The notes under the pieces: generated by a model
Seen by the model: only the letters and a program-made list of their open reading frames with translations
Database searches by the model: none
Told to the model about the DNA's origin: nothing
Made by a program: the position numbers and the translations under genes
Shown: positions 17,141-51,375 of the stretch, piece by piece
Numbering within the stretch: the first letter of the stretch is position 1
Layout: the number at the start of each line of letters is the position of its first letter
Source of the DNA: an uncultured Candidatus Saccharibacteria bacterium
GTDB lineage: Bacteria > Patescibacteriota > Saccharimonadia > Saccharimonadales > Saccharimonadaceae
Assembly: GCA_937858705.1 (NCBI GenBank)
Contig: CALLZM010000006.1
Location: 124,001-188,000, forward strand
Length of the DNA stretch: 64,000 nucleotides
Direction of reading: 5' to 3'

Positions 17141-17238
17141 TTATATTGAGGGGGTGTGAAGCCACAGTTTTACAAACTGCGGAATCAAACCCTTACAATT
17201 TGCGGGGTGAAATCTTTACAAAGTGCGGGGTAAGGAGT
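17141..17238 (+). repeat. 23-bp tandem repeats overlapping the promoter of the 17250 ATPase
   Basis: Three units start at 17169, 17192 and 17215 (exact 23-bp period), with a diverged fourth near 17141. Shared core: TTACAA, then TGCGG, then a run toward AA. The third unit contains the -35 box. Two helical turns per unit would put bound protein on one DNA face. Confidence 0.75.
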
Positions 17239-28645: not shown

Positions 28646-28667
28646 GTTGTAAGAAGTGAGTGGGGAT

Positions 28668-29564: not shown

Positions 29565-31387
29565 TGGCCAAGCGACCAGACCCAATAGATATCGCGGCAC
29601 AGCAACGAGCGAGAGAGCAGGCCGAAGTCGAACAAGCCTTCCTGAAGGGTATGAACACCCTTCGCGACCTCATTGCGCCAAGCAGTCTCGAAATTCACGC
29701 CAGTTATTTTCGCCTGGGCACCAAATATTGCCGCACGCTCTATGTATACGGCTATCCTAGAGAGGTGTTTACTGGCTGGCTGAGCGCCTTCATTAATGTC
29801 GATGAAGTGATAGACATCAGCATGTTCATCTACCCAGTCGACAGCCAAACCGTACTAAACAACCTTCGCAAAAAAGTAACGCAACTCGAAGCCTCCATGG
29901 CCATCAACGCCGAAAAAGGACGAACGCGCGACCCAGGCCTGGAAGCCGCGCTGACCGATGCCGAGGAATTGCGAGATCAGCTGCAAGTAGGAGCCGAGCG
30001 GTTCTTCCGCTATGGGCTTTACCTTACCATGTATGCCGACAGCCTGGATGAACTGAGCTTTATCCAGCGAAAAATCGAAACCATGTTCGGCCAGCTACTC
30101 ATTTTCACCAAAGTCGCCAGTAGCCAGCAAGAGCAGGGCATGAACAGCACCTTCCCGCAAATGACCGACCAGCTGCAAATTCGCCGCAATATGAATACGG
30201 GCGCAATATCGACGAGCTTTCCGTTTACCAGTGCCGATTTGTCCGATGGCAAAGGCATTCTATATGGGGTAAATATGCACAATAATGGCCTGGTCATTTT
30301 CGACCGCTTTAGCCTGGAAAATGCCAATATGGTGGTGTTCGCCAAGTCTGGTGCTGGTAAATCGTTTACCGTGAAGCTTGAGGCCCTACGAAGCATGATG
30401 CTGGGAACCGACATTGTTATCATCGACCCCGAAAATGAGTACCAGAAACTCGCAGATGCTGTAGGCGGCAGTTACATTCGACTCTCGCTCAACAGTGATA
30501 CTCGCATCAATCCATTTGACTTACCGCGAGTTATCGACACCGAAGAAGCCGACGATGCCTTGCGGGCAAACCTTGTGACACTACACGGGCTATTTCGTCT
30601 GATGCTTGGCGGCAGCCAGATGACAGCCGACGGACAGATGATGTCCGGGCTCACCGCTGCCGAGGAAGCCGACCTCGACCAGGCGCTCATCGACACCTAT
30701 GCTCGCGCTGGCATCACCAGCGACCCGCTGACACACAACTCTGCGCCGCCGACTATTTCCGATCTGTACGACACACTGCTGCATATGGGCGGCACTGGGC
30801 CGAGCCTGGCACAGCGGCTTCGTAAGTTTACTTCGGGCACCTTTGCTGGTATTTTCAGCCAGCAAAGCAATATAGACATAAACAACCACATGGTGGTGTT
30901 CAATATTCGCGACCTAGAAGATGAACTGCGGCCAATCGCCATGTACATCGTGCTGAGCCACATCTGGAATATCACTCGTACCGACCAACGAAAACGAATG
31001 CTCATCGTCGACGAAGCCTGGCAACTGATGAAGTATGACGATAGCGCCAACTTCCTGTTTTCACTAGCAAAACGCGCTCGCAAGTACCAGCTAGGCCTAA
31101 CTACTATCACGCAAGATGTTGAAGATTTTATGGGCAGCAAGATGGGCAGGGCAATCGTCGCCAACAGCTCCATGCAGCTACTTTTGAAGCAGTCGACCAG
31201 CGCCGTCGATGTCCTGAGCGATGTATTTAAGCTGACTGAGGAAGAGCGAAAACGCCTGTCGAACTTCCCAGTGGGGCAGGGGCTATTCTTTGCTGGCCAA
31301 AACCATGTGCACATACAAATCATCGCCAGCCAAACAGAGCATCAACTCATCACCACCAACCCCAGCGAGCAATTTCAAAAACAATAG
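29564..31387 (+). CDS. virB4: VirB4-family T4SS ATPase (PrgJ counterpart)
   Basis: A 607-residue P-loop ATPase. Walker A is VFAKSGAGKSFTVKLE (about residues 256-271), followed by IVIIDPENEYQKLADAVGG, the HerA/FtsK-type signature; Walker B is RMLIVDEAWQLM (about 478-489), with an arginine-rich region and ITQDVEDFM after it. VirB4 powers pilus assembly and substrate transfer at the inner membrane. The N-terminal part (MNTLRDLIAPSSLEI ... YCRTLYVYGYP) is also VirB4-like, so the split with the preceding gene is only partial. The start is the ATG overlapping the upstream stop, seven bases after GGGAG. Confidence 0.95.
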   Translation: MAKRPDPIDIAAQQRAREQAEVEQAFLKGMNTLRDLIAPSSLEIHASYFRLGTKYCRTLYVYGYPREVFTGWLSAFINVDEVIDISMFIYPVDSQTVLNNLRKKVTQLEASMAINAEKGRTRDPGLEAALTDAEELRDQLQVGAERFFRYGLYLTMYADSLDELSFIQRKIETMFGQLLIFTKVASSQQEQGMNSTFPQMTDQLQIRRNMNTGAISTSFPFTSADLSDGKGILYGVNMHNNGLVIFDRFSLENANMVVFAKSGAGKSFTVKLEALRSMMLGTDIVIIDPENEYQKLADAVGGSYIRLSLNSDTRINPFDLPRVIDTEEADDALRANLVTLHGLFRLMLGGSQMTADGQMMSGLTAAEEADLDQALIDTYARAGITSDPLTHNSAPPTISDLYDTLLHMGGTGPSLAQRLRKFTSGTFAGIFSQQSNIDINNHMVVFNIRDLEDELRPIAMYIVLSHIWNITRTDQRKRMLIVDEAWQLMKYDDSANFLFSLAKRARKYQLGLTTITQDVEDFMGSKMGRAIVANSSMQLLLKQSTSAVDVLSDVFKLTEEERKRLSNFPVGQGLFFAGQNHVHIQIIASQTEHQLITTNPSEQFQKQ

Positions 31388-31396
31388 CTAAGATGG

Positions 31397-31402
31397 TATA
31401 AT
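31397..31402 (+). promoter_or_regulatory. Internal leaderless promoter before the M23 protein
   Basis: TGG followed by TATAAT (31397-31402), with the ATG at 31410 seven nucleotides further on. It would let the hydrolase part of the T4SS operon be expressed separately from the channel genes. Confidence 0.6.
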
Positions 31403-31409
31403 ATAGCAA

Positions 31410-34400
31410 ATGGCAGTAGACCTAGAAGAAGATAGATACTCGAAAGAAGCAGTAGACGCACGCTTGCGAGCTACTGAAGCCGCCGAAGACGCTCGTGCGC
31501 TCAGCGAGATGGAAAATGCCGACCCCGAGCTAAAAGAAATAGGCGACAGAAATACACCCCCCAATGTCGGCGAGGCCGAAGCAGTAGGCGGAGGTGCTAG
31601 ATGGCAGAAAAACCCTGGCTGGGTAGATAAAACTCAGCCCAGAGTGGGTGCGCCAATGCCAACCAACGCAAAGTTGATACTCCGAAATGTCACCAAAGGC
31701 AAAAAAGGAATCATCGGTATTGCTGGCGGAATCGCAACCGCTGTTCTACTTGGTGTCTTTTTTCTTCTGCCAAATCAGCTCAAAATGGCGGTTGAAAATA
31801 TCACAGAAAGTGCGGCGAGAGTTCCGGGATATGCCATAGAACAACGCACTGAATATTTAATGACAAGATATATTGCTACACGAGTCATGGCATCGGTAGG
31901 CGGTAAAGATTTCGATCAAAAAATGATCTTCTGCAAGAATGGTGGCATAGCTTGTTCTCTCACGAGTACCAAGTTTGCCGAGGCGTTCGATAAGAGATTT
32001 AAAATCAGTACCAAACCCATTACATCGGGAGCGGTAATGAACATAGATATTGAGATACAGCCGCTCAGTCGATCTGGTCTTGGTGGCAAAGCAATGAGTT
32101 GGAACATAAAACAAACCACGACCAATACTTTAGACGACCAAGTCGATCACATAGTGCGTACAATCGATAACAACAAGGAAATGAAGGCATTTCTGAAGGC
32201 AGAAGTAAATAGAACCTACAAAAAAGGCTTTTTATCTCGACTGGTAGGGAAAAATATTTTAATGAAACGATACGGGGTGACCCACTTTAGGGGACTCGAA
32301 AAAACCCGCAACACAACAAAGAAATATCTAGCGGGGATCGGCGCAAAAGTCACATCGAACACCGTAGGTAAGATATTGCCAAAACTACCAGTGTATTTCT
32401 CATGCCTAGAGGGCGGAAATAGCCTGAATTGCGAGCAAGCCATACAAAAAGCATCAAGTGCCCTTGGAGATCAAATTGATGAGCTACAAAAAGGTATCGA
32501 CAATGAAACATCTGACACCAAAAAAGAATCCCTCAAGAAGAAACAAGAGGGATTAAAGCAACTACAAAAAGGTATCGAATCACCAGATCTCGACGGCAAA
32601 ACAGGGAAGATTATAGGTAAAAATATCCTCAGTAAAGTAGCCGGTCCGCTAGCCGTAGCGTCGATAATAGATCTTGCATCGAGAGTTATTGTATCTACAG
32701 ACGAACATATGCTAGAGGTTATTTCCTACGACATTATGGGACAGGCCTATGTTGGGCTCGCTTACGGAGATGAGGTCGGCATTGTGCCCGCTGTCGACCA
32801 AGCAACCGTAGGCGAATCATCCGTGGAGGGCCTCGGGACACTTACCTCTATGGTAGCAAATATGGGAGCTGCGCCTCTATACCAGTATAGAACCGGCCAG
32901 CTAAAATACTCTAGCGAAAGCAGTTATGTCGCCGAATGTGAAGTCGAAGGTGAGAAAAAATTAATAACACTACCCAAAGGAGAGCTAGTTTGCCCAGAAG
33001 AAAAAATGGTGAAATCCTACCTAGGATTTACGAACGACCCATGGTGGCAATTTATGGCCGTGCCTGCTAAGATTTGGAAAAATACTGGTGGCCTACTGTT
33101 TGACGCAATTGGGTGGCTGACCGGGCCAGTAGTTGGTGCGGTAGGCAGTATCTTCAGCGCAATAACCGACCTACCAGGACTATCGAGTATCAAAGAGGGG
33201 GGCAAAGAACTCTTTTCTCAAGCAGTAGAATGGCTGATAAATATCGTATTTGGAATACCAGATATTGGTATGCAAGGTAGCTCAGGAGCAAACTATACTG
33301 CCCTAGATGGTGGGATATCTCAAAACATGAACGACACCATGAAATATGGAAGTGAAGACGGAGAGTTAATGGGCGCCGGGGGTAAAGTTCTCTCGCCCAA
33401 AGAAGTTGGCGTAATAAATCAAGCCGTTCTAGAGAACGAAAAAGAAGAATTTCACTCACAAAGCACTTTAGCTAAAATATTCGATGTAAATCTCAAGGGT
33501 TCGGTGTTCAATAAGCTCGCGCTCGTGACACCGCGAAACTTCGCAGGATTATTGAGCCTCACGCCTCGTCTATTTGGAGGCATCAACTCCACCATGTCAA
33601 ACGATGTATTTGCAGCAGACGACACTGGCTACAATCCTCACGGTTTTCCTATTTACGGATATGCCGCGTCTGATGAAGAACTGACCGCCGACCCAAGTAT
33701 GTACACCGATGAATATTGCAAGGCATCGGCTAAAAAACGAGTAGACAGCTACAAGGTTTATGGCAACGATGTTTTGCCTACCTATGGAGTATCTGATGGT
33801 TGTGCGCTTGAAAAAATAGCAACGGGATATATACTTAATGAATTCGAGGTGACTGACGACGAAAATTCATTAAAGGAGCCAGATGGGGGGGGTAGTGCTA
33901 GTGACACCACCAGCTCATCGAGTAATGAGGGCGACTTGCCGCCAGTAGAGGGCTGGACTTGGCCGATCAAAGATCAGCTACGAGCAGGGCCTTGCTGGAA
34001 CAGGCCCGTTAGTGGTCGCCTACATGCAGGCATGGACATAAACTCTGGCAAGCCCAGCGCACCCCTATATGCAATGCATGATGCCACGGTCATAGAAGCA
34101 GTGAGCGGCGGAGGGGGAGCGGCCGGAAACTACATTATCTTCAAGAGCACCGATGGATTATATTTCATCTATCAACACCTCTCTTCTATATCGGTAAAAG
34201 CTGGCCAGACCGTAAAGGCTAATCAATTTGTCGGAAGGGGTGGTAAAACGGGCAATGTGCAAGCAAATAGTCCCGTCCACCTCCATGTGGTAGTGTCTAA
34301 AGAGGATCCATCAAAGCCTGGACAATTCCCGAGCTATGGCAAGCTAAGATCATCAATCAACCCAATGTCCGTATTGCCAAAACCAGCACCCGATAATTAT

Positions 34401-34412
34401 AAGTGTACTTAG
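31410..34412 (+). CDS. T4SS membrane protein with C-terminal M23 (LytM) peptidase domain
   Basis: A 1000-residue protein. About 95 cytoplasmic residues precede one strong helix (IIGIAGGIATAVLLGVFFLL, about 97-116). A long external region follows with a second hydrophobic zone (LLFDAIGWLTGPVVGAVGSI, about 560). The last 150 residues are an M23 metallopeptidase: WPIKDQLRAG, LHAGMDI (His and Asp for zinc, about 872), VIEAVSGGGGAAGNYI, YQHLSS and the HLHV pair (about 956). M23 enzymes cut peptidoglycan cross-bridges. In pCF10, PrgK combines LytM, SLT and CHAP domains; here LytM is in this protein and SLT-CHAP in the one at 34878. A run of eight G (33885-33892) encodes Gly-Gly before the linker. 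Confidence 0.88.
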   Translation: MAVDLEEDRYSKEAVDARLRATEAAEDARALSEMENADPELKEIGDRNTPPNVGEAEAVGGGARWQKNPGWVDKTQPRVGAPMPTNAKLILRNVTKGKKGIIGIAGGIATAVLLGVFFLLPNQLKMAVENITESAARVPGYAIEQRTEYLMTRYIATRVMASVGGKDFDQKMIFCKNGGIACSLTSTKFAEAFDKRFKISTKPITSGAVMNIDIEIQPLSRSGLGGKAMSWNIKQTTTNTLDDQVDHIVRTIDNNKEMKAFLKAEVNRTYKKGFLSRLVGKNILMKRYGVTHFRGLEKTRNTTKKYLAGIGAKVTSNTVGKILPKLPVYFSCLEGGNSLNCEQAIQKASSALGDQIDELQKGIDNETSDTKKESLKKKQEGLKQLQKGIESPDLDGKTGKIIGKNILSKVAGPLAVASIIDLASRVIVSTDEHMLEVISYDIMGQAYVGLAYGDEVGIVPAVDQATVGESSVEGLGTLTSMVANMGAAPLYQYRTGQLKYSSESSYVAECEVEGEKKLITLPKGELVCPEEKMVKSYLGFTNDPWWQFMAVPAKIWKNTGGLLFDAIGWLTGPVVGAVGSIFSAITDLPGLSSIKEGGKELFSQAVEWLINIVFGIPDIGMQGSSGANYTALDGGISQNMNDTMKYGSEDGELMGAGGKVLSPKEVGVINQAVLENEKEEFHSQSTLAKIFDVNLKGSVFNKLALVTPRNFAGLLSLTPRLFGGINSTMSNDVFAADDTGYNPHGFPIYGYAASDEELTADPSMYTDEYCKASAKKRVDSYKVYGNDVLPTYGVSDGCALEKIATGYILNEFEVTDDENSLKEPDGGGSASDTTSSSSNEGDLPPVEGWTWPIKDQLRAGPCWNRPVSGRLHAGMDINSGKPSAPLYAMHDATVIEAVSGGGGAAGNYIIFKSTDGLYFIYQHLSSISVKAGQTVKANQFVGRGGKTGNVQANSPVHLHVVVSKEDPSKPGQFPSYGKLRSSINPMSVLPKPAPDNYKCT

Positions 34413-34421
34413 GGAACGACT

Positions 34422-34856
34422 ATGAATAAAAAGATACTAATCGCCATCATAATCATTACACTACTCGTTGTACTAGTCCTATTATTTGCCAAACAAAATA
34501 ACAGCAATACCAACAACATAGTTGAGACTAGCCAAGACCACTCTGCTTTATATAAGGCGGCGAATATTGCACTGAGAAGCCAACCCAACAACACCATACC
34601 ATATGATAGACCCATGCAACTCGAAGATGATGTGAAAAAATATGGTGAAAATTGGCTAACAGCAACCATAACACTCTTAGATGAAAACCCGGAAAGCCAC
34701 AAAAGGACCATGGTATATGTCTTCCAGATAAATAGCGATTTACTGAAGGTTATTGATTTTCAACCCAAGGGCTGGTTTATTGAAAAAAATCTCCCACAAG
34801 AAGCACCCTCTGAGATGATAAGAGACATAACATGGGATCCTGACAGTGATTATTGA
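34422..34856 (+). CDS. Small membrane-anchored T4SS-associated protein
   Basis: A 144-residue protein with an N-terminal helix (ILIAIIIITLLVVLVLLFA, residues 5-23) and an external domain of about 120 residues (DRPMQLEDDVKKYGENWLTA, later FQINSDLLKVIDFQPKGWF). The size and the single anchor recall VirB8/TcpC-type components, which have an NTF2-like external domain, but no clear motif supports this. It starts 9 bp after the M23 gene and is followed 21 bp later by the SLT-CHAP gene, so it belongs to the same operon. Confidence 0.7.
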   Translation: MNKKILIAIIIITLLVVLVLLFAKQNNSNTNNIVETSQDHSALYKAANIALRSQPNNTIPYDRPMQLEDDVKKYGENWLTATITLLDENPESHKRTMVYVFQINSDLLKVIDFQPKGWFIEKNLPQEAPSEMIRDITWDPDSDY

Positions 34857-34877
34857 GATGAATAAGGAGAAGTACGA

Positions 34878-36248
34878 ATGAAATGCAAACATAGACTACT
34901 ACTGGGGGTGGTTGTATTTTGCATATTCGCCAGCTCCCTAACAACCCCCCTGTCTGCTTTGTCGCCATTCATAAGAGATAATACTTATGTGTATAACCCT
35001 GATTCAGCCTCTATGTGTGAGCCTGGCGCAGCTAGTCAATCCGGAGATTCATCAAAAGCAGTCGATTATGCTGGTAAGGAAATATTCACCACACAAGAAT
35101 TGGCATTGATCGAAAAACATAAGCCTTTCTATATCAAAGCTGCCGAGGAATATAGTATTCCATGGGAAATGCTTGCAGTAGTTCATTATCGCGAAACCCG
35201 TCTCTCTCGAACCAATCATAGCAACGGCCAAGGGATTTATCAGGACTACGAAAAAAAGGGTGGACCCTATCCGGCAGGAGAAAAGGTGAGTGACGAGGAA
35301 TTTCAGAGGCAAACAAACTATGCCGCTAAAATACTTGTCGAAAAAGCAGGAAAAATGAAAGGTGAGCTGAAAAATAATAGTAGCGATGCTGTAAAATACA
35401 CTTTTTTTGGATACAATGGTCGAGCTAAGGTTTATAAAACTCAAGCCAAAAATCTTGGTTTTACTGACGAACAGGCCGAACTCGGAGAGGGCTCTCCATA
35501 TGTCATGAATAAGGCCGATGCAAAAAGAGACCCCAACACTAATGGCGATAAGTGGGGGCAAATAAAAACCGATGGCGGATCGATCAAATACCCTGCCAAC
35601 CAAGACCATGGTGCATTTGTCATGTATGCTTCCATAAATGGCAGTATCAGCGCGGGATGCTTCGAATCAGGGCAACTCACATCGGGCGGGTTAACCGAAA
35701 AGCAAGCAAAGCAATTTATGATACACTACGGCACAAACAAAAATGATAGTACGAAAAAGGCAATGGCATCGTCGTCATGGACTGCATGCGGAGGGGGGGG
35801 CAAAGGTGGCGGATCAAACTGTGTGTCTTTTACGGAGTTTTTCATAAATAAATTTACTAAGATTAAGGCAAGAGATTCAAAGTTTAACGAAGGAAGAATG
35901 GGCGACGGCTCCGAGGTTGTGGGATTCTTAAAAAACAGAGGGGTTCCAACCGGAAAAGAACCGAAGGTGGGAGCAGTCTTTAGTACCACAGGATCTCCTG
36001 GTCATACAGGAATTGTCCTAGGAATTGATGGCGATAATGTTATCATAGGACACGCTAGTTGCAACAGGGGTAAGGATGGACAGCGTGGAGCTGGAGACGG
36101 CACAGAAAGTGGCAATGGTTCAGGGTTTGTATTAACAGGTAAACGAAGTAGTTCTAAACCATGGTGGGGCGGTTCGGTCGCCAAAGAGTTTGCTTATCCA
36201 GAAATCGATACCGCCGCAATAGAGCGATACCTACAAACAGGAGAGTAA
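34878..36248 (+). CDS. VirB1/PrgK-like peptidoglycan hydrolase: lytic transglycosylase plus CHAP amidase
   Basis: A 456-residue secreted protein. Signal peptide about residues 1-27. A lysozyme-like domain follows with the catalytic Glu106 in IPWEMLAVVHYRETRLSR and downstream GQGIYQDY. The C-terminal CHAP domain has SNCVSF (Cys about 314), VGAVFSTTGSPGHTGIVLG (His about 374) and VIIGHASC. The two activities cut glycan strands and stem peptides, opening the wall for the T4SS. A Gly/Lys-rich linker with eight consecutive G (35793-35800) joins the domains and is a possible slippage site. AAGGAG precedes the ATG. Most likely acts outside the membrane, in the donor wall or the wall of a contacted cell. 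Confidence 0.9.
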   Translation: MKCKHRLLLGVVVFCIFASSLTTPLSALSPFIRDNTYVYNPDSASMCEPGAASQSGDSSKAVDYAGKEIFTTQELALIEKHKPFYIKAAEEYSIPWEMLAVVHYRETRLSRTNHSNGQGIYQDYEKKGGPYPAGEKVSDEEFQRQTNYAAKILVEKAGKMKGELKNNSSDAVKYTFFGYNGRAKVYKTQAKNLGFTDEQAELGEGSPYVMNKADAKRDPNTNGDKWGQIKTDGGSIKYPANQDHGAFVMYASINGSISAGCFESGQLTSGGLTEKQAKQFMIHYGTNKNDSTKKAMASSSWTACGGGGKGGGSNCVSFTEFFINKFTKIKARDSKFNEGRMGDGSEVVGFLKNRGVPTGKEPKVGAVFSTTGSPGHTGIVLGIDGDNVIIGHASCNRGKDGQRGAGDGTESGNGSGFVLTGKRSSSKPWWGGSVAKEFAYPEIDTAAIERYLQTGE

Positions 36249-36251
36249 AGA

Positions 36252-37118
36252 ATGTACGAAATAATATATACTAATTGGAAAAAAATTCTTATATCATTTT
36301 TTGCTGTGATATTTCTTATCATCGGATTGTCTGTTTTATATATTTCCATAAATAATCCTCATGGAGAAGAATTGCAAATCAGCAATCTATCGACATATAC
36401 CAAAGGAAAAGCCTCCGACAAAGACACACTTTTCCAGATAAAACACTCGTTGTATGAGTTGGTGCAAAGAAACACTAAAGAGCCCATCAAGAGTAATTCC
36501 ATAGATGATGTTATGATACGGGACAAATCTTATAACCAAAAGTATGACGAAAAAAACCACACCCATTATGTTGAGTTTATAGTTGATATAGCAAGCATTA
36601 AACAGTCGTACTTGGTAAATTATCAATGGTCTTCGACAACAGCCGCCGAAGATGATGGTGCTGCTCAATATGGCAACATGGTGTCATGCCTACCAGATGA
36701 TCAGCTGAAATATGGTACATTTCACTGTCAAGATCTTATGTCCGACATGGGCGGAAGTGAACCGCGACTTGTTGTTAGTTGGGCATACCACGAGGACGAA
36801 TACGACAACCCTATCGGCGACCAACTGCAACCATATGAGACGATGTTTATTGAGTATCAAATATTAGGGGATTACAGATCTAACCACAAACTTAAAAAAA
36901 TAAGAGTAGACACAGATATAAAAAATGTTAAGCGAACTATATCTACAGGAAACACCCTAGGTGACACCCCCGCAACGAACACATTGAGATTTGATATTAT
37001 CGTAGAGAAAAATTCCACCCATGAGGTGTTTATCGATTATGACAATGGGCGATATATGAGTATAAAAAACACCACAACAGGCAAAGTAATCGACAGAAAA
37101 ACCGAAGTCGATTACTAA
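36252..37118 (+). CDS. Membrane-anchored T4SS-associated protein, last gene of the operon
   Basis: A 288-residue protein with a short cytoplasmic start, one helix (ILISFFAVIFLIIGLSVLYI, about 12-31) and an external domain of about 255 residues that looks beta-rich (YVEFIVDIASIKQSYLVNYQ, RLVVSWAYHEDEYD, LRFDIIVEKNSTHEVFIDYD). No family recognised. The ATG is 3 bp after the previous stop and the ribosome-binding site (AGGAG) lies inside the end of the SLT-CHAP gene, so translation is coupled. It could be a VirB8-like or adhesin-like part. Base composition is more A/T-rich than the operon's beginning. Confidence 0.7.
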   Translation: MYEIIYTNWKKILISFFAVIFLIIGLSVLYISINNPHGEELQISNLSTYTKGKASDKDTLFQIKHSLYELVQRNTKEPIKSNSIDDVMIRDKSYNQKYDEKNHTHYVEFIVDIASIKQSYLVNYQWSSTTAAEDDGAAQYGNMVSCLPDDQLKYGTFHCQDLMSDMGGSEPRLVVSWAYHEDEYDNPIGDQLQPYETMFIEYQILGDYRSNHKLKKIRVDTDIKNVKRTISTGNTLGDTPATNTLRFDIIVEKNSTHEVFIDYDNGRYMSIKNTTTGKVIDRKTEVDY

Positions 37119-37153
37119 CATCTTGGCACTTCAACATCTTTTTGTTCAATGAG

Positions 37154-37197
37154 TTTAGTAGTAATTCGTAGACTCAACTCGACGAATTACTACTAAA
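37154..37197 (+). terminator. A/T-rich inverted repeat, probable terminator of the T4SS operon
   Basis: TTTAGTAGTAATTCGT (37154-37169) and its exact reverse complement (37182-37197), 12-nt loop; TTCGTCGGTTTTTAC follows on the plus strand, giving a short T-run. Confidence 0.55.
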
Positions 37198-37265
37198 TTC
37201 GTCGGTTTTTACTATTTTTATAACCAATTACTGAAAAATCACATACAAAAAACTACCTCTGTTGC

Positions 37266-37325
37266 TACACATTTTTCAAAGGAATAGCGTGGTTATTTTA
37301 CACATAATCTGAAGGAATGGTTTAT
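37266..37325 (-). repeat. Orphan copy of ATPase C upstream repeats
   Basis: 60 bp aligning without gaps to 40139-40198 with six differences. It contains two of the 33-bp units (TACACATttttcAAAGGAAT and TACACATaatctGAAGGAAT), but no gene follows in the corresponding direction. Confidence 0.8.
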
Positions 37326-37444
37326 AAGGAGGCTGTTTTGATAATCGTACCTTACAGTAAAGCCAATTTCAGCACGAGTCGTAAAGTTAAATCAATTATT
37401 GCTTGAAAAAAAAGACACCTTAGTATTACAGTGTAATCACAGCA

Positions 37445-37478
37445 CCTCGCTTGGACATCAGTTCTCGCGAGGTTTTTT
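37445..37478 (+). terminator. Terminator hairpin
   Basis: CCTCGC (37445-37450) with GCGAGG (37467-37472) and TTTTTT (37473-37478). Confidence 0.6.
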
Positions 37479-37490
37479 GCTGCAATAGCT

Positions 37491-38687
37491 CTAGCAATCC
37501 AATAGCCAATCAATAAGGCTCAACTGCTCTATGCCATTATAATTAGCTTGGCCAGCATCGAGTGTCAAAACTATCTTTTGGTGGTGGTTGGTCGGAAAGG
37601 CAGATAGCTCGCGCTCGCGAGTTTCTACACCAAGCATGGTCTCGGCTACCTGGTAGTAGTGTATAGTGCCATCGTGCGCGGTAGCGACGAAGTCAACTTC
37701 CTTGGTGTTATTTTTGCCGATTTGAACGGTTTTGTTGCGGCGCAATAGCTCTAGGTAGACGATATTCTCGAGTAAATGGCCGCGATCGGCGGTGAGGTTT
37801 TTATCGAGAATATTGCGCGATAAGCCGATATCTACCGAGTAGTACTTGCCTAGTGTTTGCAGGAGTTTTTTACCCTTTATGTCGTAACGGTGCGCCTGGT
37901 AGAGGACAAAGCTGTCGGTGAGCGCCGACAAGTAACTTTCGACAGTGAGGCGGTTGACGGAGTTACCGTTTGAAGTAAGCGTATTGGCAATGTTGTTCGG
38001 TGAGAGCTGGCTGCCGATGTTGTCCATGGTGAACTTCAGGACATTAGTGAAGTCGAAGTCCGAGCGGATACTGCGTCGGCGCTTGACATCTTTTTCTAGC
38101 ACGGTTTTGTAGATGCCGTCTAGGTAGTCTGAGACTTCACTTTTGGCGCCGCTGTGTATGAAGTTGGTGACTTCAGGGAAGCCGCCGTATTCAAAGTAAT
38201 CGGCGAATATTTCGTTACTTGGTGTATTACTATAACTAGCCGCAAATTCTGCAAACGAAAAGGGCAAGATGCTCAGCTCTATATAGCGACCAGACAGTAC
38301 TGTCGCTAGGTCGCCAGACAACATATAGGCGTTGCTGCCAGTGATGTACACATCTATGTTATCTTTGACGAACAGGCTATCGACGAGTTTTTCAAAGTGT
38401 GGAACATTTTGTATTTCATCGAGGAACACATAGTATTGCTCTTGTGGATTGATGAGGCGCATGATGTAATCGTTAAGCAGGTGCGGCTCAAGCAGCGAAG
38501 CGTTTTCGAGCTCTTCCAGATTGAGTGCGATGATGTTGGATTTGGCCACGCCACTAGCGAGCAGTTCGTCTTGGAACTGCTTGAATAGCGTAGATTTACC
38601 GCAACGGCGAATACCCGTGATAACCTTGATGACATTTTGGTCACGGAGCTTGCGGAGTTTTTTGAGGTAGAATTCGCGGAGTATCAT
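37491..38687 (-). CDS. AAA_14/DUF4143-type ATPase (module B), nuclease-like motif lost
   Basis: A 398-residue protein. Walker A is GIRRCGKST (25-33) and Walker B YVFLDEIQN, followed by an arginine-containing sensor region (YITGSNAYMLSGDLATVLSGR) typical of this AAA subfamily. In the C-terminal DUF4143 part the first acidic motif is kept (KEVDFVATAHDG), but where relatives have ExK this protein reads HYYQVAET, so any metal-dependent nuclease chemistry is probably gone. Monocistronic and leaderless, with a near-consensus promoter (38695-38723) and a 15-bp-arm palindrome just upstream. Neighbour of module C in the same orientation; sequence similarity between them is low. Function unknown. Confidence 0.88.
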   Translation of the reverse strand: MILREFYLKKLRKLRDQNVIKVITGIRRCGKSTLFKQFQDELLASGVAKSNIIALNLEELENASLLEPHLLNDYIMRLINPQEQYYVFLDEIQNVPHFEKLVDSLFVKDNIDVYITGSNAYMLSGDLATVLSGRYIELSILPFSFAEFAASYSNTPSNEIFADYFEYGGFPEVTNFIHSGAKSEVSDYLDGIYKTVLEKDVKRRRSIRSDFDFTNVLKFTMDNIGSQLSPNNIANTLTSNGNSVNRLTVESYLSALTDSFVLYQAHRYDIKGKKLLQTLGKYYSVDIGLSRNILDKNLTADRGHLLENIVYLELLRRNKTVQIGKNNTKEVDFVATAHDGTIHYYQVAETMLGVETRERELSAFPTNHHQKIVLTLDAGQANYNGIEQLSLIDWLLDC

Positions 38688-38694
38688 GATGGTC

Positions 38695-38723
38695 AGTATA
38701 GCACTTGTGATTAGTTATGTCAA
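38695..38723 (-). promoter_or_regulatory. Near-consensus leaderless promoter of ATPase B
   Basis: Minus strand: TTGACA (38718-38723), 17-bp spacer, TATACT (38695-38700), ATG seven bases later at 38687. Confidence 0.82.
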
Positions 38724-38729
38724 TAGCCC

Positions 38730-38769
38730 TAATAACAAAACTATGTAATATATGATAGTTTTGTTATTA
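38730..38769. repeat. 15-bp-arm palindrome between ATPase C and ATPase B
   Basis: TAATAACAAAACTAT (38730-38744) and its exact reverse complement (38755-38769), 10-nt centre. It ends 7 bp upstream of the -35 of module B and overlaps the stop of module C; it could be an operator or a terminator. Confidence 0.8.
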
Positions 38770-40074
38770 TCTTAAAAACTGATTCACTAGCTGGTCGAAT
38801 AGCCAAGAATTATATAATGGAATATTAAGTAGTCCACCGTTCATCTCTATACTCTTCATAGAAAACCGCACCGATAGTCGCGGCTGGTACTTATCTCGAT
38901 ACACCCGGAGGCTCTTGGCTTTGACATTTTCACCACTCTTCACCTCGATAGGCACTATATTTCCTTTAAACTGCGTCACAAAATCAACCTCGCTCCGAGC
39001 TCCAGAAGTCCAATAGTACAGTGTGTTTCGTGCGAGTTGCTGGAGGACGAACTGCTCGGCAAACATGCCGTTAAACTGGCGAAATATATCATCGGAGCCT
39101 GTGATATCACCCGAAGATAGCCCACACAACACCCTCAGCAGTCCGATGTCGAGAAGATATAGCTTGAAGACAGACATATCTTTATATGCTTCAAGTGGCA
39201 GTTGGTCGCCACGACTCACGCTGTGAACTTTACGCACAAGCCCGGCATCGACCAACCATGCAATCGACAGTTTATATTCGCGCGCCCTCGCACCGGGTCG
39301 GGCAACACCATAGATAAATCGTCGATTTTCTTTGGCAAACTGAGAGGGGATGCTCTGCCAGATATAGTTAATCCGCTCTGCCTGCGAAGGGTCGGTATAC
39401 TTACTAAAGTCATTGCGATAGGACATGAGGATACCGCTTAGTACCTCGTCAACCGCCCGCATATCTTTTGACTCCAGCCACTCGACCACCGCTCGAGGCA
39501 TGCCGCCGACTGCCATATACTGAGTAAAGGCGTCTGAAAATTCACCAGAAAAGTGCTCGTAGTTACCTGGGCTTTTACAGGTGTAATCAATCTTCTCCTC
39601 CAGACCACTTGCCCAGCAGAACTCCTCGAAACTCAACGGTTCAAGTCGCAGAAAATCAACCTTGCCAACAGGGAAAGAAGTACCAGAGTGAAGCGCCACA
39701 CCAAGGAGACTTCCGGCTGCGGCGATGTGGTACTCTGGAGCGTCTTCGGCGAAATACTTGAGGGAGGCAAGTGCTCTTGGCAACTCTTGAATCTCGTCGA
39801 AGATAATAAGCGTATCAGTAGGGGAAATGGCTTGGCCGTACTTCACGGCGAGGAAGTCGATGATGCGTGACGGGTGGATAGCCCCAGAGAAAAGCTCAGT
39901 GATATCCGGGTCGATACGGTCAAAGTTGACATACACTACACTTTGATAGTGCTCTTTGCCGAATTGTTGCAGTAGATAGGTTTTGCCGACTTGTCGCGCC
40001 CCTTCAAGGATGAGTGGCTTACGAGTTTGGCGATCCTTCCAGGCAGTAAGTTCTTCTGTGAGTTGGCGTTTCAT
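38767..40074 (-). CDS. AAA_14/DUF4143-type ATPase (module C)
   Basis: A 435-residue protein. Walker A GARQVGKTY (25-33), Walker B LIIFDEIQE, then AAAGSLLG in the sensor position, as in the most common branch of this family. The DUF4143 half ends with ARSEVDFVTQFKGNIVPIEVKSG, an intact E/D...ExK nuclease-like site. The ATG at 40074 is chosen because AAGGAGAACGCT precedes it; a frame start 12 codons upstream has no ribosome site. It is the only ATPase of the five with a leader and a Shine-Dalgarno sequence. Three 33-bp units (40105-40203) cover its promoter. Function unknown. Confidence 0.9.
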   Translation of the reverse strand: MKRQLTEELTAWKDRQTRKPLILEGARQVGKTYLLQQFGKEHYQSVVYVNFDRIDPDITELFSGAIHPSRIIDFLAVKYGQAISPTDTLIIFDEIQELPRALASLKYFAEDAPEYHIAAAGSLLGVALHSGTSFPVGKVDFLRLEPLSFEEFCWASGLEEKIDYTCKSPGNYEHFSGEFSDAFTQYMAVGGMPRAVVEWLESKDMRAVDEVLSGILMSYRNDFSKYTDPSQAERINYIWQSIPSQFAKENRRFIYGVARPGARAREYKLSIAWLVDAGLVRKVHSVSRGDQLPLEAYKDMSVFKLYLLDIGLLRVLCGLSSGDITGSDDIFRQFNGMFAEQFVLQQLARNTLYYWTSGARSEVDFVTQFKGNIVPIEVKSGENVKAKSLRVYRDKYQPRLSVRFSMKSIEMNGGLLNIPLYNSWLFDQLVNQFLR

Positions 40075-40104
40075 AGCGTTCTCCTTTGTATTACACAAGA
40101 AGTA

Positions 40105-40203
40105 TATCACATTTTCCGAAGGAATAATAGTACTGATTTACACATTTTTCAAAGGAATAATGTGGTTATTTTACACATAATCCGAAGTAATAGCTTATGA
40201 ATG
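40105..40203 (-). repeat. Three 33-bp tandem units upstream of ATPase C
   Basis: Units begin at 40105, 40138 and 40171 (plus strand: TATCAC/TTACAC, ATTTTxC, GAAGGAATAAT). They cover a candidate minus-strand promoter, TTGAAA (40147-40152), 17-bp spacer, TATTAT (40124-40129). Confidence 0.75.
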
Positions 40204-40260
40204 GCCGTTTTTTAAGCCTCAGTTTCACTTTTTTGAGCATTTCAGTTTACATTTTTCCAA

Positions 40261-40308
40261 AACTTTGCGTGAAAATGTGTTACTTTTTGGTGATTTTCAC
40301 GCAAAGTT
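40261..40308. repeat. 16-bp-arm inverted repeat
   Basis: AACTTTGCGTGAAAAT (40261-40276) and exact reverse complement (40293-40308), 16-nt loop. In the gene-free stretch 40075-40472. Confidence 0.85.
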
Positions 40309-40344
40309 ATGCTCAATTGCTGTATATTTCTTGAAGAAATAGAA

Positions 40345-40380
40345 GTGACTACACGAATTTGCAGGAATTCGTGTAGTCAC
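40345..40380. repeat. 15-bp-arm inverted repeat
   Basis: GTGACTACACGAATT (40345-40359) and exact reverse complement (40366-40380), 6-nt loop. On the minus strand the hairpin is followed by TTCTATTTCTTC, so a weak terminator for ATPase D is possible. Confidence 0.85.
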
Positions 40381-40405
40381 AGTACTCGAATTTCAAAGAA
40401 TATTG

Positions 40406-40453
40406 GGATCGTGATTCCCATTTTTTAGCCAAATAATGGGATTATCAGGGGTG
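40406..40453. repeat. 48-bp direct repeat flanking ATPase D (left copy)
   Basis: 47 of 48 bases identical to 41647-41694. It contains the palindromic core TCCCATT...AATGGGA. It lies 20 bp past the stop of module D, with no gene downstream of it in the same orientation. Confidence 0.92.
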
Positions 40454-40472
40454 GAGGAGTTTAGTGATAGTA

Positions 40473-41603
40473 CTATGCCACGAAATCTAAATAATTGTCT
40501 CGGTTCACAACATCAAACTGTGCGCCAGGATACACTTCATCCCACTGAATGGGCTTGGGAATATTCTTTTTTGGTGACCATTTGAATTCATATCCATAGA
40601 GTTGACCATCACGATCTTCTACGAGGTCTATCTCTTGCTGGCTATGTGTTCGCCAGAAGTAAGATGAACCATGCAGCTTCGTGTAACTACGGTACTTCAG
40701 CCGTTCCACAACAAGGAAATTCTCCAGAAGCGCACCTCTGTCATTTCGTGAATCAAGCGCATTAAACTGTTGCAATAGAGCATTGCGTACCCCTATGTCA
40801 AGGAAGTAATACTTACTTTTGCGAGTAATTTCTGTTCGCAAGTTGCGGCTAAACCCACCTAGGCGCACTATCACAAAACACTGCTCAAGCAAATCGAGAT
40901 AGCGCTCGACTGTCTTAAGATCCCAGCCAAGCTTTTGACCTAGCTCGTGGAGCGAAACTTCATTGCCAACCTGTAGGGCAAGCAGTTTCAAGAGGTCTCG
41001 CAATGACTTTGGTGATTTGATATTATCGAGTGCTAGTATATCTTTTAGAAGATACGAGTCAACCAACTCCGTGAGATATACTATCTTATCTTGTGGGGTA
41101 ACTGCGTTTAAGCTGTCTGGATAAGAGCCGTAGAGTAAAAAATCCTCCAGTTGTTGCCCTAGGTCGTATTGGTTACCGATATGTCCGAGTAATTCCATCT
41201 GAGCAATAGGATAGAGGCGTAGTGTCGTCTTGCGTCCCACAAGAGGCTCACCAATACTACGAGCAAGATCAAACGATGAAGAACCGGTTGCAATTATTCG
41301 TACACCGGGGTGCTGGTCAACAATAATCTTCAGACCCCTGCCAATGTTTGCAATTTCTTGCGCTTCATCGATAACAATAAGTTGATTATCTCCAACATAG
41401 CGACTAATCGCGGTAAAATCTTGAGAACCAAGTACTTCTTGAATAGAAATATTTTCACCAGAGTCAAAGCGGTATTTATAAGGAGCGGTCTCGAGATAAT
41501 TACGAATAAGAGTTGTTTTTCCAACTTGTCGTGGCCCATATATAACAAGAACCTTACCGGGACATATATATGATTCAAGATTACTATAATAACGAGGTAT
41601 CAT
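40473..41603 (-). CDS. AAA_14/DUF4143-type ATPase (module D)
   Basis: A 376-residue protein. Walker A YGPRQVGKTT (22-31), Walker B LIVIDEAQE, then RIIATGSSSFDLAR as sensor 1. The helical middle is followed by a DUF4143 end with SQQEIDLVEDRDGQLYGYEFKWS, so the ExK-like site is present as EFK. The ATG at 41603 lies 6 nt after TATAGT, which excludes the slightly longer TTG frame. Flanked by 48-bp direct repeats, the right one being part of its own promoter repeats directly after dnaN. It separates the dnaN/dnaA core from modules C and B. Function unknown. Confidence 0.9.
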   Translation of the reverse strand: MIPRYYSNLESYICPGKVLVIYGPRQVGKTTLIRNYLETAPYKYRFDSGENISIQEVLGSQDFTAISRYVGDNQLIVIDEAQEIANIGRGLKIIVDQHPGVRIIATGSSSFDLARSIGEPLVGRKTTLRLYPIAQMELLGHIGNQYDLGQQLEDFLLYGSYPDSLNAVTPQDKIVYLTELVDSYLLKDILALDNIKSPKSLRDLLKLLALQVGNEVSLHELGQKLGWDLKTVERYLDLLEQCFVIVRLGGFSRNLRTEITRKSKYYFLDIGVRNALLQQFNALDSRNDRGALLENFLVVERLKYRSYTKLHGSSYFWRTHSQQEIDLVEDRDGQLYGYEFKWSPKKNIPKPIQWDEVYPGAQFDVVNRDNYLDFVA

Positions 41604-41609
41604 GTCTCC

Positions 41610-41638
41610 ACTATACACCAAAATCCCATTTTTTGCAA
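41610..41638 (-). promoter_or_regulatory. Leaderless promoter of ATPase D inside a repeat unit
   Basis: Minus strand: TTGCAA (41633-41638), 17-bp spacer, TATAGT (41610-41615), ATG six bases later. The spacer and -35 belong to the repeat unit nearest the gene. Confidence 0.7.
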
Positions 41639-41684
41639 GAAAAATAGGATTGTGATTCCCATTTTTTAGCCAAATAATGGGATT
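41618..41684 (-). repeat. Two 33-bp units upstream of ATPase D
   Basis: Both units carry TCCCATTTTTT (starting 41624 and 41657, offset 33) and end GGATT; each is itself a dyad (TCCCATT ... AATGGGA in the distal unit, imperfect in the proximal one). Confidence 0.8.
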
Positions 41685-41694
41685 ATCAGGGGTG
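41647..41694. repeat. 48-bp direct repeat flanking ATPase D (right copy)
   Basis: Partner of 40406-40453 (one mismatch). It lies between the stop of dnaN (41703) and the promoter of module D. Confidence 0.92.
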
Positions 41695-41702
41695 AGAGTG
41701 GT

Positions 41703-42803
41703 CTAGCTTTTCAGTGGCATGATGATGTGTAGGTAGTTTTGCTCTTTGGTTTCTGGCCGTATGACGATTGGCGCGATAGCACCGCTAAAGGCAAGTGAAA
41801 TTTTATCGCTATCGACTACAGATAGTACTTCTTGGAGGTAGCGAGAGTTTAGTGATATCTGGCCGCTTCCTTTTACTTCTGTTATGATGGTCGAGGTATT
41901 CTCGCCAACTTCCGAAGTGATGGACTTTATGAGGATTTCACCTTTTTCTTCGTCTGCAACCATAGTGATGCTGCCGCCAGAGTCTCGCGTAAATAGACTA
42001 GCTATTTTAGTGGTTCGACTGATTTCACTCGTAGAAAGCGTCGTAGCGATCTCGGACTTGGCTGGTATGAGCTGGCGATAGTCTGGATATTTACCGTCGA
42101 TAAGCCGACTCGTTACTTCCGCTTGGCCTATGCGAAAACGAACCTGTGTTTCATCGAATAAAATATCCACTTCATCGATATCGTCGCCAAGCAACCGCAG
42201 TGTCTCCTGAAGTGTCGAAGAGGGGACTACCGCCACCAGTTCGCTAGTGGTTTCGATAAGTTTTTTCTCGGACAGGCGATACCCGTCGGTGCCGGCAATG
42301 AATAGCGATCCTTCGTGTGAATGCCAGTACACCCCTGTGAGGACAGGGCGACTCGTATCATGACTACAGGCGAAAATGACTTGCTCCATGGACTTTTTAT
42401 ATTCTGGGGTGCTGATTTTATATTGTATGGAGGTTTTTTCGTCGATAGTCGGCAATTCAGGAAATTCCTCGGCATCAATGCCGTTGATAACGGAAGAATA
42501 TCCCGCACACTCAATGTGAAGAATTGAGCCCTTGGTAGAAAGGGTGATATTTTCGTCTGGGAGGTTTGAAATAAATTCAGTAATGAGCTTTGCGGGAACG
42601 GTAATATCGCCTTGTTTATCTATCTTGGCGCCTATTTTAGATACTGAAGCAATCTCAAGGTTCGTCGCTGCAACAAGGAGTTGCTTACCAGTAGTTCGAA
42701 GAAGGATATTGTTCAATACTGGCAAACCTCCTCGCGAAGTCGATACACGACTACAAGCAGCGAGTGCTTTATTGAGATTTTTTTGAGTGACAACGATATC
42801 CAT
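41703..42803 (-). CDS. dnaN: DNA polymerase III sliding clamp (beta subunit)
   Basis: A 366-residue beta clamp, the usual length. Three clamp domains can be followed: N-terminal LNKALAACSRV ... LPVLNNILLRT, central SRPVLTGVYWHSHEGSLFIAGTDGYRLS (the conserved xGxxxxxxDGYRL signature) and the C-terminal end with LHIIMPLKS. It forms the ring that holds the replicative polymerase on DNA and binds DnaA-regulatory proteins. AAAAGGAG eight bases before the ATG gives a clear ribosome-binding site, so it is read from a leadered transcript starting in the 247-bp gap after dnaA, or from dnaA read-through. The stop is followed by the promoter repeats of ATPase D. Confidence 0.97.
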   Translation of the reverse strand: MDIVVTQKNLNKALAACSRVSTSRGGLPVLNNILLRTTGKQLLVAATNLEIASVSKIGAKIDKQGDITVPAKLITEFISNLPDENITLSTKGSILHIECAGYSSVINGIDAEEFPELPTIDEKTSIQYKISTPEYKKSMEQVIFACSHDTSRPVLTGVYWHSHEGSLFIAGTDGYRLSEKKLIETTSELVAVVPSSTLQETLRLLGDDIDEVDILFDETQVRFRIGQAEVTSRLIDGKYPDYRQLIPAKSEIATTLSTSEISRTTKIASLFTRDSGGSITMVADEEKGEILIKSITSEVGENTSTIITEVKGSGQISLNSRYLQEVLSVVDSDKISLAFSGAIAPIVIRPETKEQNYLHIIMPLKS

Positions 42804-43050
42804 ATAGTATTTCTCCTTTTCTTATTTCGTGTTAGTAGTTATAGGTGCTGTGTATAGTGGGCAAAACTCGCGCGACAATAGAGATAGATAGCGTGGTAGT
42901 GTGTGTGTAAAACCCTGTGTATGATATGCGAACAAACTGTTGATAGATAAGGTGCTATTCACAGCCTTAAAGCTGTAGAATAGTTTTACACAAAAGTTCC
43001 ACACAGCAGTGATGGCTGTATACTCAATTTGTTCACACCATTTCCACAGT
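42804..43050. promoter_or_regulatory. dnaA-dnaN intergenic region with DnaA-box-like sites
   Basis: Several near matches to TTATNCACA or its complement: TGTGTATAG (42849-42857), TGTGTATGA (42915-42923), TATTCACAG (42955-42963), TTTTACACA (42983-42991), TTGTTCACA (43029-43037) and ATTTCCACA (43040-43048). No gene seen in it. Part of a possible bipartite origin and the control region of dnaN. Confidence 0.5.
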
Positions 43051-44427
43051 TTATGCATACAAAGAATCCCTCACGCTTGCTACTTGTTCGCGAATAACAA
43101 AGTCGAGCTTGATGGCTTTTTCGATTTTATCAACAGAGTGTATGGCGGTGGTGTGGTCTTTGCGTCCCAGTTCGGTAGCAATGCGCGGAAAACTCAAGTG
43201 AAGCTCGCTGCGCAGTAGGTACATGGCGATTTGCCTGGGGGTGACGATATATTTGTCGCGCTTTGGACTGCAAATATCTTTGGTGTCAATCTGAAAATGC
43301 CGGGCGGTTTTTTCGACAATTTGTCGAGCGGTGATATGTTGTGGCCGGCTGTGTCGTACGCTACCGAGTAATCCTTCGGCAGTTGAAATATCTGGTGTGA
43401 TGTTGCGCACCTCAGAGTAGGCAAGGAGTTGGTTGAGTGCACCTTCAAGTTCGCGGATATTTGTTTTGATGTTTTTTGCTAAAAATTCCACTGTGTCACG
43501 ATCGAGCTCTACGCCACTGAAGCTGGCTTTGGTTTCGAGAATTGCGCAACGAGTTTCAAAGTCGGGCATCTGTATATCTATCGCCATACCCCATTCGAGC
43601 CGGCTTCGCAAACGGTCGGTGAGGGTGGGGATGCTTTTTGGCGGCTTATCGCTGCCGATGACAATTTGTTTGTTGAGCTGATGAAGCGCGTTAAAAGTGT
43701 GAAAAAACTCTTCTTGGGTTTTTTCTTTGCCGGCGATAAATTGCATATCATCAACGATGAGTACATCGACATTGCGGTATTTATCGGAAAAACCGGCCTT
43801 TTTGAAACGGATGTGTTCGAGAAATTCTTTAACGAAAGTTTCTGAGCTTACATAGAGCACTCGAGTGCCTGGACGATCGGCAATAATTTTATTGCCCACT
43901 GCCTGAAGAAGGTGAGTTTTACCGAGACCAACACCACCATAAATAAACAATGGATTGTATTTTTGTCCCGGATTTTCGGCTACAGCCAGGCAGGCGGTGT
44001 AGGCAAGATCGTTTGATGAACCGACAATGAATGACTCGAAAGTATATTTTGGATTGAGAGTATTGCCAGGAGTTTTGTTTTTTGAAGCGCCTGACAGGGG
44101 AAGGGTGTTTCTGTCGTTTTCTCTTGCCTGAGCGACCGATTCTGGTTGTATTTCACGACTCATACCACCGCGTTTGGAGACGGAGTTTGAGGCTATAATA
44201 TAACGAATATTTTTGACTGCTACGCCGTGGTTTTGCAGTATTTCACGGAGTTTTTGGTCGAACTTTACTTCAAATTGTCGCTTGGCGAATATGTTTGTTA
44301 CGAGCACCGACAGTTCGCCATCATTGTTTTCGATAAGTTTTGTGGGCTTGAACCAAGTCGTAAAATTACCATGTGACATCGTCAATTCAACCTCACCCAA
44401 CACACTCTGCCACAAATTATTTTCCAT
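43051..44427 (-). CDS. dnaA: Chromosomal replication initiator DnaA
   Basis: A 458-residue AAA+ initiator. Domain I (LWQSVLGEVELTMSHGNFTTWF) is followed by a short linker, then the ATPase core with Walker A GGVGLGKT (164-171) and Walker B VLIVDDMQF (about 228), and domain IV with the DnaA-box reading helix (LGRKDHTTAIHSVDKIE near 425). It melts the origin and loads the helicase. A TATACT box (44435-44440) ends 7 nt before the ATG, so the mRNA is leaderless. The matching -35 (TTGTGG) overlaps a DnaA box, which indicates autorepression. Divergent from rpmH across the putative origin. Confidence 0.98.
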   Translation of the reverse strand: MENNLWQSVLGEVELTMSHGNFTTWFKPTKLIENNDGELSVLVTNIFAKRQFEVKFDQKLREILQNHGVAVKNIRYIIASNSVSKRGGMSREIQPESVAQARENDRNTLPLSGASKNKTPGNTLNPKYTFESFIVGSSNDLAYTACLAVAENPGQKYNPLFIYGGVGLGKTHLLQAVGNKIIADRPGTRVLYVSSETFVKEFLEHIRFKKAGFSDKYRNVDVLIVDDMQFIAGKEKTQEEFFHTFNALHQLNKQIVIGSDKPPKSIPTLTDRLRSRLEWGMAIDIQMPDFETRCAILETKASFSGVELDRDTVEFLAKNIKTNIRELEGALNQLLAYSEVRNITPDISTAEGLLGSVRHSRPQHITARQIVEKTARHFQIDTKDICSPKRDKYIVTPRQIAMYLLRSELHLSFPRIATELGRKDHTTAIHSVDKIEKAIKLDFVIREQVASVRDSLYA

Positions 44428-44434
44428 ATACCTT

Positions 44435-44463
44435 AGTATAGTGAACTATAGAGTTTTCCACAA
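44435..44463 (-). promoter_or_regulatory. dnaA promoter overlapping a DnaA box
   Basis: Minus strand: TTGTGG (44458-44463), 17-bp spacer, TATACT (44435-44440). The -35 lies in the TTTTCCACA box at 44454-44462. Confidence 0.65.
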
Positions 44464-44612
44464 CCTCAGATGGTGGTAGCGCTTGACAAAATAAATATAA
44501 AACTTTTCCACAACTTATAAACCACCCCTGTAAATATTGTGGAAAAAGAGGGGAATAGTGTGGATAGATGCACTAGCCAGACAACAGTAGACGGGAAACT
44601 CAAGCGAGCGAC

Positions 44613-51298: not shown

Positions 51299-51328
51299 AG
51301 TATAGCACAAGCACTTACAGTCTGTCAA
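51299..51328 (-). promoter_or_regulatory. Leaderless promoter of ATPase E
   Basis: Minus strand: TTGACA (51323-51328), 18-bp spacer, TATACT (51299-51304), ATG six bases later. The -35 lies in the third 23-bp unit. Confidence 0.78.
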
Positions 51329-51375
51329 GTAAAATGCTCACAAAGTGTCGCATGAAAAGCTCATAATGTGTCAAA
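51307..51375 (-). repeat. 23-bp tandem repeats overlapping the promoter of ATPase E
   Basis: Three units at 51353-51375, 51330-51352 and 51307-51329, each with GACA...TGAG/TAAG in the same register on the minus strand. Same period and same placement relative to the -35 as upstream of module A, but a different sequence. Confidence 0.72.

Follow-up and report, generated by a model that had tools for sequence, protein, structure and literature searches.

PDC-S01, a family of single-gene units, is reported to rank fourth in abundance among the defence candidates of prokaryotes; its copies run to tens of thousands, it has no tested function, and validation is pending for most such candidates (PMC12988326). 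No anti-phage activity of PDC-S01 is reported in the literature that we found. Likewise, we found no mention of repeats at its promoters in the searchable literature, including PMC12988326; subscription journals and preprints lie mostly outside that literature, and an earlier description is possible. Here, we describe five members of this family, genes A to E, in 64,000 nucleotides (the window) of contig CALLZM010000006.1 from an uncultured Candidatus Saccharibacteria bacterium. We consider it probable that each is a horizontally moving one-gene module, which encodes an AAA+ ATPase-nuclease and is controlled by its own private operator array. A private, clade-patterned operator that travels with its gene would be the first concrete, testable handle on a common but unexplained candidate antiviral family, and a sequence rule that pairs each protein with its site would open the way to binding, reporter, and cross-talk experiments. 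It also suggests that some of what is now tallied as antiviral defence may be self-serving mobile DNA.

Five modules and their promoter elements

The genome that holds the window (G000, whose contigs include C25 and C31) comprises 31 contigs and 910 kb, and its relatives in our search have similarly small genomes. Overall, the modules were compared with about 200 relatives. A first-pass annotation, made from the letters alone, had placed five members of one ATPase/nuclease-like family in the 64 kb. This count stands: both the AAA_14 and the DUF4143 domains score above the Pfam cut-offs in all five genes, and two further members on contig C25 bring the genome total to seven. PADLOC assigns all five to PDC-S01 with near full-length matches (E-values of 3e-60 to 5e-162). 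B, C, and D are neighbouring single-gene units, with a type IV secretion/peptidase block on one side and dnaN-dnaA on the other, and a lag scan of the upstream regions found a different repeat or palindrome at each of the five promoters, as the annotation had described. The genes (with their PADLOC models), their elements, and two context genes are as follows.

17170 to 17231, plus strand: operator of A, three direct repeats (TTACAAACTGCGG... type) at a lag of 23 bp, from -80 to -19 relative to the start codon
17250 to 18506, plus strand: gene A, AAA_14-DUF4143, PDLC04790
37266 to 37325, minus strand: orphan copy of the C array, 60 nt, 90%, oriented like the array itself, downstream of C on the far side of gene B
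37491 to 38687, minus strand: gene B, AAA_14-DUF4143, PDLC04787
38732 to 38767, no strand assigned: palindrome of B, ATAACAAAACTAT-N10-ATAGTTTTGTTAT, 36 bp, abutting the end of gene C
38767 to 40074, minus strand: gene C, AAA_14-DUF4143, PDLC04786, D-x(n)-E-V-K motif intact
40108 to 40192, minus strand: operator of C, three direct repeats (TATTCCTTYGGAAAATGTG type) at a lag of 33 bp
40258 to 40311, no strand assigned: long palindrome with 19-nt arms, no gene attached, unique in the genome
40347 to 40380, no strand assigned: palindrome GTGACTACACGAATT/AATTCGTGTAGTCAC, no gene attached, unique in the genome
40391 to 40453, minus strand: second copy of the D operator, 63 nt, in the same orientation, 19 nt past the D stop codon (an operator-gene-operator order)
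40473 to 41603, minus strand: gene D, AAA_14-DUF4143, PDLC04789
41632 to 41694 (second unit to 41624), minus strand: operator region of D, two palindromes at a lag of 33, just past the dnaN stop codon and into the -35 of D
41703 to 42803, minus strand: dnaN (context), directly beyond D
43051 to 44427, minus strand: dnaA (context)
50027 to 51292, minus strand: gene E, AAA_14-DUF4143, PDLC04790 clade
51314 to 51372, minus strand: operator of E, three direct repeats (GACACTTTGTGAGC type) at a lag of 23 bp, with the -35 TTGACA inside

A genome-wide copy search covered the operators of A, C, D, and E and the two palindromes without a gene. The elements of C and D have one further copy each, namely the stray copies at 37266-37325 and 40391-40453 that the annotation had pointed out; the latter is 90% identical to the D operator overall, with 47 of 48 nt identical in its core. 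A third stray copy came to light on contig C31, where 85 nt are 91% identical to the A array, and the E operator has no other good copy in the genome. Judging from these searches, each gene has a private repeat sequence. Both palindromes without a gene are perfect or near-perfect and may be relic operators. By eye, the one at 40347-40380 looks like the operator unit of L204, a D-type gene from Bacteroidetes.

Spacing, position, and covariation of the operators

We compared the promoters of 102 DUF4143 genes from same-order relatives with 227 other promoters from the same loci. Direct repeats with a score of at least 10 are present in 56% of the family promoters and in 11% of the controls (Mann-Whitney p=1.5e-16), and inverted repeats in 43% versus 9% (p=2.8e-18); because some control promoters share their region with a module, these controls are conservative. 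The lags pile up at 23, 32, and 33, and on a maximum-likelihood tree they follow the protein clades: 12/12 A/E-clade genes have 23 bp, 11/14 C-clade genes 32/33 bp, and 23/42 D-clade genes 30-34 bp; palindromes are found in the D clade as well as in the B clade. In other words, the protein clade sets the spacing between repeats, and the repeat sequence is gene-specific.

The same spacings are seen in other phyla. Strong repeats are present in 54 of the 79 D-clade genes that we took from named genomes for replication (Chloroflexota, Omnitrophota, Bacteroidota, Acidobacteria, Spirochaetes, Patescibacteria, and others), and the lag is 32 or 33 bp in 52 of the 54; the figure for shuffled sequence is 2/79. 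On viral contigs, C-type genes have a lag of 32/33 bp in 13 of 18 cases, and A genes one of 23 bp. Plasmid genes of the C type have lags of 33 (Segatella), 33 (Glaesserella), and 32 bp (Vibrio), and those of the A type, in Collinsella and B. ovatus, 23 bp; an upstream lag scan of the family gene on a Thermus plasmid found no array. The first-pass annotation had named homologues that lack repeats as a possible refutation, and here the outcome favours it: same-clade relatives in many phyla were found to keep them at the same spacing.

The arrays are also placed where an operator controlling its own promoter would be: they cover the -35 in 40 of the 52 genes with a callable promoter (random placement, 43%). 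Among CPR genes, by which we mean those of Patescibacteria/Saccharibacteria-type relatives including the window genome, 88 have a callable -10 box, and in 41 of them it is positioned -12/-13 relative to the ATG. This suggests leaderless transcripts in these genes, in which the array is probably untranscribed and would therefore act as DNA. The most ordinary explanation would see in the palindromes and repeats nothing more than terminators, structured RNA, or binding sites for host regulators unrelated to the modules, and some intergenic palindromes (37151-37200) do look terminator-like. This explanation is disfavoured and scarcely credible: a Rfam search of 36000-44500 gave no match, for which reason an RNA regulatory element was set aside; the arrays often lie upstream of a leaderless -10; outside their own orphans there is no second site for the C, D, or E operators, and one for that of A; and the clade-fixed spacing holds across phyla.

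It had been proposed that the repeat sequence co-varies with the protein, and the upstream regions of 105 D-clade genes bear this out. Pairs with an operator-similarity score of at least 14 make up 0.5% of those with a protein identity of 35-42%, 8% at 50-60%, 35% at 60-75%, and 67% at 75-90%. Distal upstream DNA stays near background while operator similarity climbs with protein identity, and in a Mantel test 0 of 300 permutations reached the observed value.

Transfer of the modules, flanking repeats, and solo arrays

When related pairs from different genomes (65-79% DNA identity) are aligned, the match begins at the operator's outer border (-40 to -112) and ends with the stop codon, and a translated comparison of the 1.5-kb flanks found no homology in 22 of 25 pairs. 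When gene C of the window is compared with the best of its CPR relatives (in G241), these borders fall about -104 from the start codon and -28 from the stop codon. The conserved unit holds one gene, with no two-component arrangement of toxin and antitoxin. The sequences support transfer as a unit, in which array and gene pass together between unrelated loci and phyla.

The distribution of the family is patchy, and the two same-genus genomes have zero members. Gene order around dnaN and around an ABC-transporter gene is continuous in same-genus genomes without B-C-D or without E and its neighbouring Fic gene; these relatives are too diverged for base-exact empty-site junctions to be resolved, and one same-genus DNA comparison, for modules of G183, gave mostly 65-84% identity. 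The five genes fall in four deep clades, A and E sharing one at 47% identity, and window D is 56-60% identical to Anaerolineales proteins and 58% to Omnitrophota proteins, compared with 36-51% to same-order ones. Because D is nearer to proteins of other phyla than to those of its own order, it was acquired horizontally. An origin of the five genes by local duplication, part of the annotation's interpretation, is not supported and was rejected on account of these clades and the relatives of D. The five genes were gathered by horizontal transfer, and the earlier interpretation as a whole is partly supported.

The neighbourhoods of these genes also deserve a brief description. Adjoining B-C-D, VirB4/TraG-type ATPase, M23 peptidase, and CHAP-domain genes (28656-37118) probably make up a block akin to type IV secretion. 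Next to E, in tail-to-tail orientation, stands a Fic/DOC gene (49127-50008) with a C-terminal MarR-like helix-turn-helix, which is missing together with E from the same-genus relatives.

At a threshold of E<1e-4, direct repeats flank 14/98 CPR units and 0/148 control open reading frames (p=1.4e-6); of these, G183_C15 lies among paralogous repeats and is to be discounted, leaving 13/98. In other phyla, the counts are 16/75 units and 1/125 controls (p=6e-7). Several of these repeats, that of D included, are the operator itself placed right after the stop codon: a same-orientation operator copy starts between -26 and +20 nt from the stop in 8/102 cases and in none of about 590 mismatched pairs. 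Others are host DNA; in L238, for example, the repeat is the final 130 nt of the gene upstream. On contig C31 (L320, 2900-3118), a NUDIX gene, intact over 197 codons in a relative, breaks off where the 85-nt solo A array starts. The next gene there encodes a Fic protein with an N-terminal helix-turn-helix, and since it starts 50 nt beyond the array, the array could instead be a second regulated promoter. The LepA-like reading frame upstream has only 302 aa, about half length. In the window, the palindrome of B abuts the end of C and the downstream array of C lies beyond B, as if B had been inserted there; B would thus have entered between C and the second array of C.

These observations (the excess of flanking direct repeats in CPR and other phyla, the operator copies near the stop, the broken NUDIX gene, and the position of B) would fit a self-mobilising minimal element, in which the PD-(D/E)XK nuclease, brought to the arrays by the ATPase, cuts or rearranges DNA there, and the operator-gene-operator unit moves or recombines away, leaving solo arrays. 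However, the majority of units have no flanking repeat, the B clade behaves similarly without an active site, and host-mediated recombination could yield identical structures. Moreover, although a precise unit from operator edge to stop codon at unrelated sites is a trait of transposable elements, we found no transposase or integrase, and the duplications, which a minority of units have, are of mixed kinds (20-190 nt; some of host DNA, one a repeat of a diversity-generating retroelement), unlike a target-site duplication of fixed length. We regard self-mobilisation of this kind as unlikely.

A 125-nt repeat around a B-like unit on contig C25, which was outside the count of 14/98, was considered as an insertion duplication and rejected, because the reading frames there show a reverse transcriptase, an Avd-like gene, and a template repeat, that is, a diversity-generating retroelement. 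This retroelement (L035, 3046-7022) consists of a target gene with a variable 3' end, the Avd-like gene, the template repeat, and the reverse transcriptase; one PDC-S01 unit lies just before the target gene and another between the target and Avd. In G183 (L150 and L173), PDC-S01 units are found among repeated pieces of a paralogous FISUMP-like domain gene, which are possibly variable or silent cassettes.

Protein architecture, possible function, and known systems

AlphaFold2 models of D and C are confident, with pLDDT values of 92.3 and 90.0. D is read from the secondary structure of its model as an AAA+ core, a helical lid, a winged helix (198-267), and a C-terminal PD-(D/E)XK-like nuclease domain, and the A/E, C, and D clades retain the residues of the nuclease motif. 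A sequence search against solved structures found no homologue apart from generic P-loop matches, NCBIfam gave no match, and PHROGs gave two weak matches, to D only. The fold matches in the PDB are partial (TM about 0.2-0.3) and include Apaf-1, Orc1/Cdc6 on origin DNA, RuvB, and MuB.

The Orc1/Cdc6-DNA complex is among the best of these matches, the direct repeats are about two or three helical turns apart, and dnaA-dnaN adjoin in the window, all of which recalls a maintenance device, in which iteron-like arrays and an Orc1/Cdc6-like ATPase would help to replicate or partition a plasmid or a region of the chromosome. However, with TM-scores of only ~0.3, Apaf-1, RuvB, and MuB match equally well, the units lie at unrelated chromosomal sites, the arrays overlap promoters, and the nuclease domain is left unexplained, so that such a role seems highly improbable. 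As for the annotated position next to the replication origin, dnaA and dnaN do adjoin, but no sharp switch of GC skew was seen at that point.

For the reading that we prefer, a transferable module under its own operator, the following mechanism can be imagined. Several copies of the protein would occupy the evenly spaced repeats, much as phage repressors and iteron-binding proteins do, and thereby silence the promoter of their own gene. Such autorepression would limit the amount of a nuclease that could be harmful, with derepression setting in when the ATP state, infection, or loss of the module alters occupancy. The operators may diversify because co-resident modules must avoid cross-regulation. 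We would expect the pay-off to be defence or addiction, not housekeeping. DNA binding, autoregulation, self-mobilisation, and biological role are all inferred here from sequence patterns.

Several observations weigh against this reading. About 44% of the CPR genes have no array at the threshold used. In the B clade, the fold position of the nuclease is kept, but E-x-K has changed to Q-V-A/S/T and the catalytic lysine is lost. Two D-clade pairs have proteins that are 91% identical and operator regions that are dissimilar. The winged helix of the D proteins is among their most conserved parts and does not predict operator similarity, for which reason it was dropped as the candidate reader of specificity. 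As for defence context, PADLOC found no other clear defence gene among seven window genes scanned; its one match, weak and SoFic-like, falls in the Fic gene that neighbours E. It should be mentioned separately that L205 and L208, from metagenome-assembled genomes of Acidobacteria, are apparently one locus, with proteins 91% identical and a different promoter-proximal sequence, a possible natural operator switch. Weak specificity signals at residues 145-168 and 289-320 are recorded without being claimed.

The strongest competitor takes PDC-S01 as named, that is, as an anti-phage defence nuclease that the operator merely holds off until infection, its mobility being the ordinary transfer of defence genes. 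The PADLOC models match all five genes, the family is present on plasmids and viral contigs, it adjoins hipBA toxin-antitoxin genes in Bacteroides plasmids, and it ranks fourth among the defence candidates (PMC12988326). On the other hand, the label derives from genetic context and most such candidates await validation (PMC12988326), no phage-specific feature was found at these loci, and defence alone leaves the operator-gene-operator order and the solo arrays unexplained. We rate this explanation as quite possible, at somewhat less than even chances. A bolder speculation, which we think doubtful, is that PDC-S01 is a new kind of minimal selfish DNA, a gene together with its private array, the protein of which silences its own promoter and with its nuclease acts on arrays of the same type; it would spread, exclude competitors with the same array, and leave solo arrays when lost.

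How do these modules compare with known systems? They are like PDC-S01 as published in their full-length model matches, their single gene, their AAA+ ATPase with a PD-(D/E)XK fold, and their wide and mobile distribution; their private arrays, clade-fixed spacing, and transfer unit of array plus gene go unmentioned in the papers that we found. With the autoregulated operators of toxin-antitoxin systems and phage repressors, they share a predicted operator that overlaps its own promoter (the array position noted above fits this trait) and a specificity that differs between otherwise similar systems; here, however, there is one gene, with no separate antitoxin, the ATPase and nuclease are in one protein, and binding is predicted only. 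Plasmid iterons and their Rep initiators likewise have direct repeats about 2-3 helical turns apart beside the gene of the presumed binder, whereas the present repeats lie at a promoter, differ in sequence per gene, and have a putative replication role at most. Insertion sequences and homing endonuclease genes are also small one-gene units at unrelated sites, with flanking direct repeats and solo remnants, but the modules have no transposase or homing nuclease motif, their duplications vary in length, and their array is part of a promoter. Finally, the Tn7-type TnsA/TnsC pair and MuB offer the same combination of a PD-(D/E)XK nuclease with an AAA+ ATPase, and MuB is among the fold matches; here there is no DDE transposase partner, and this loose resemblance is best taken as a lead.

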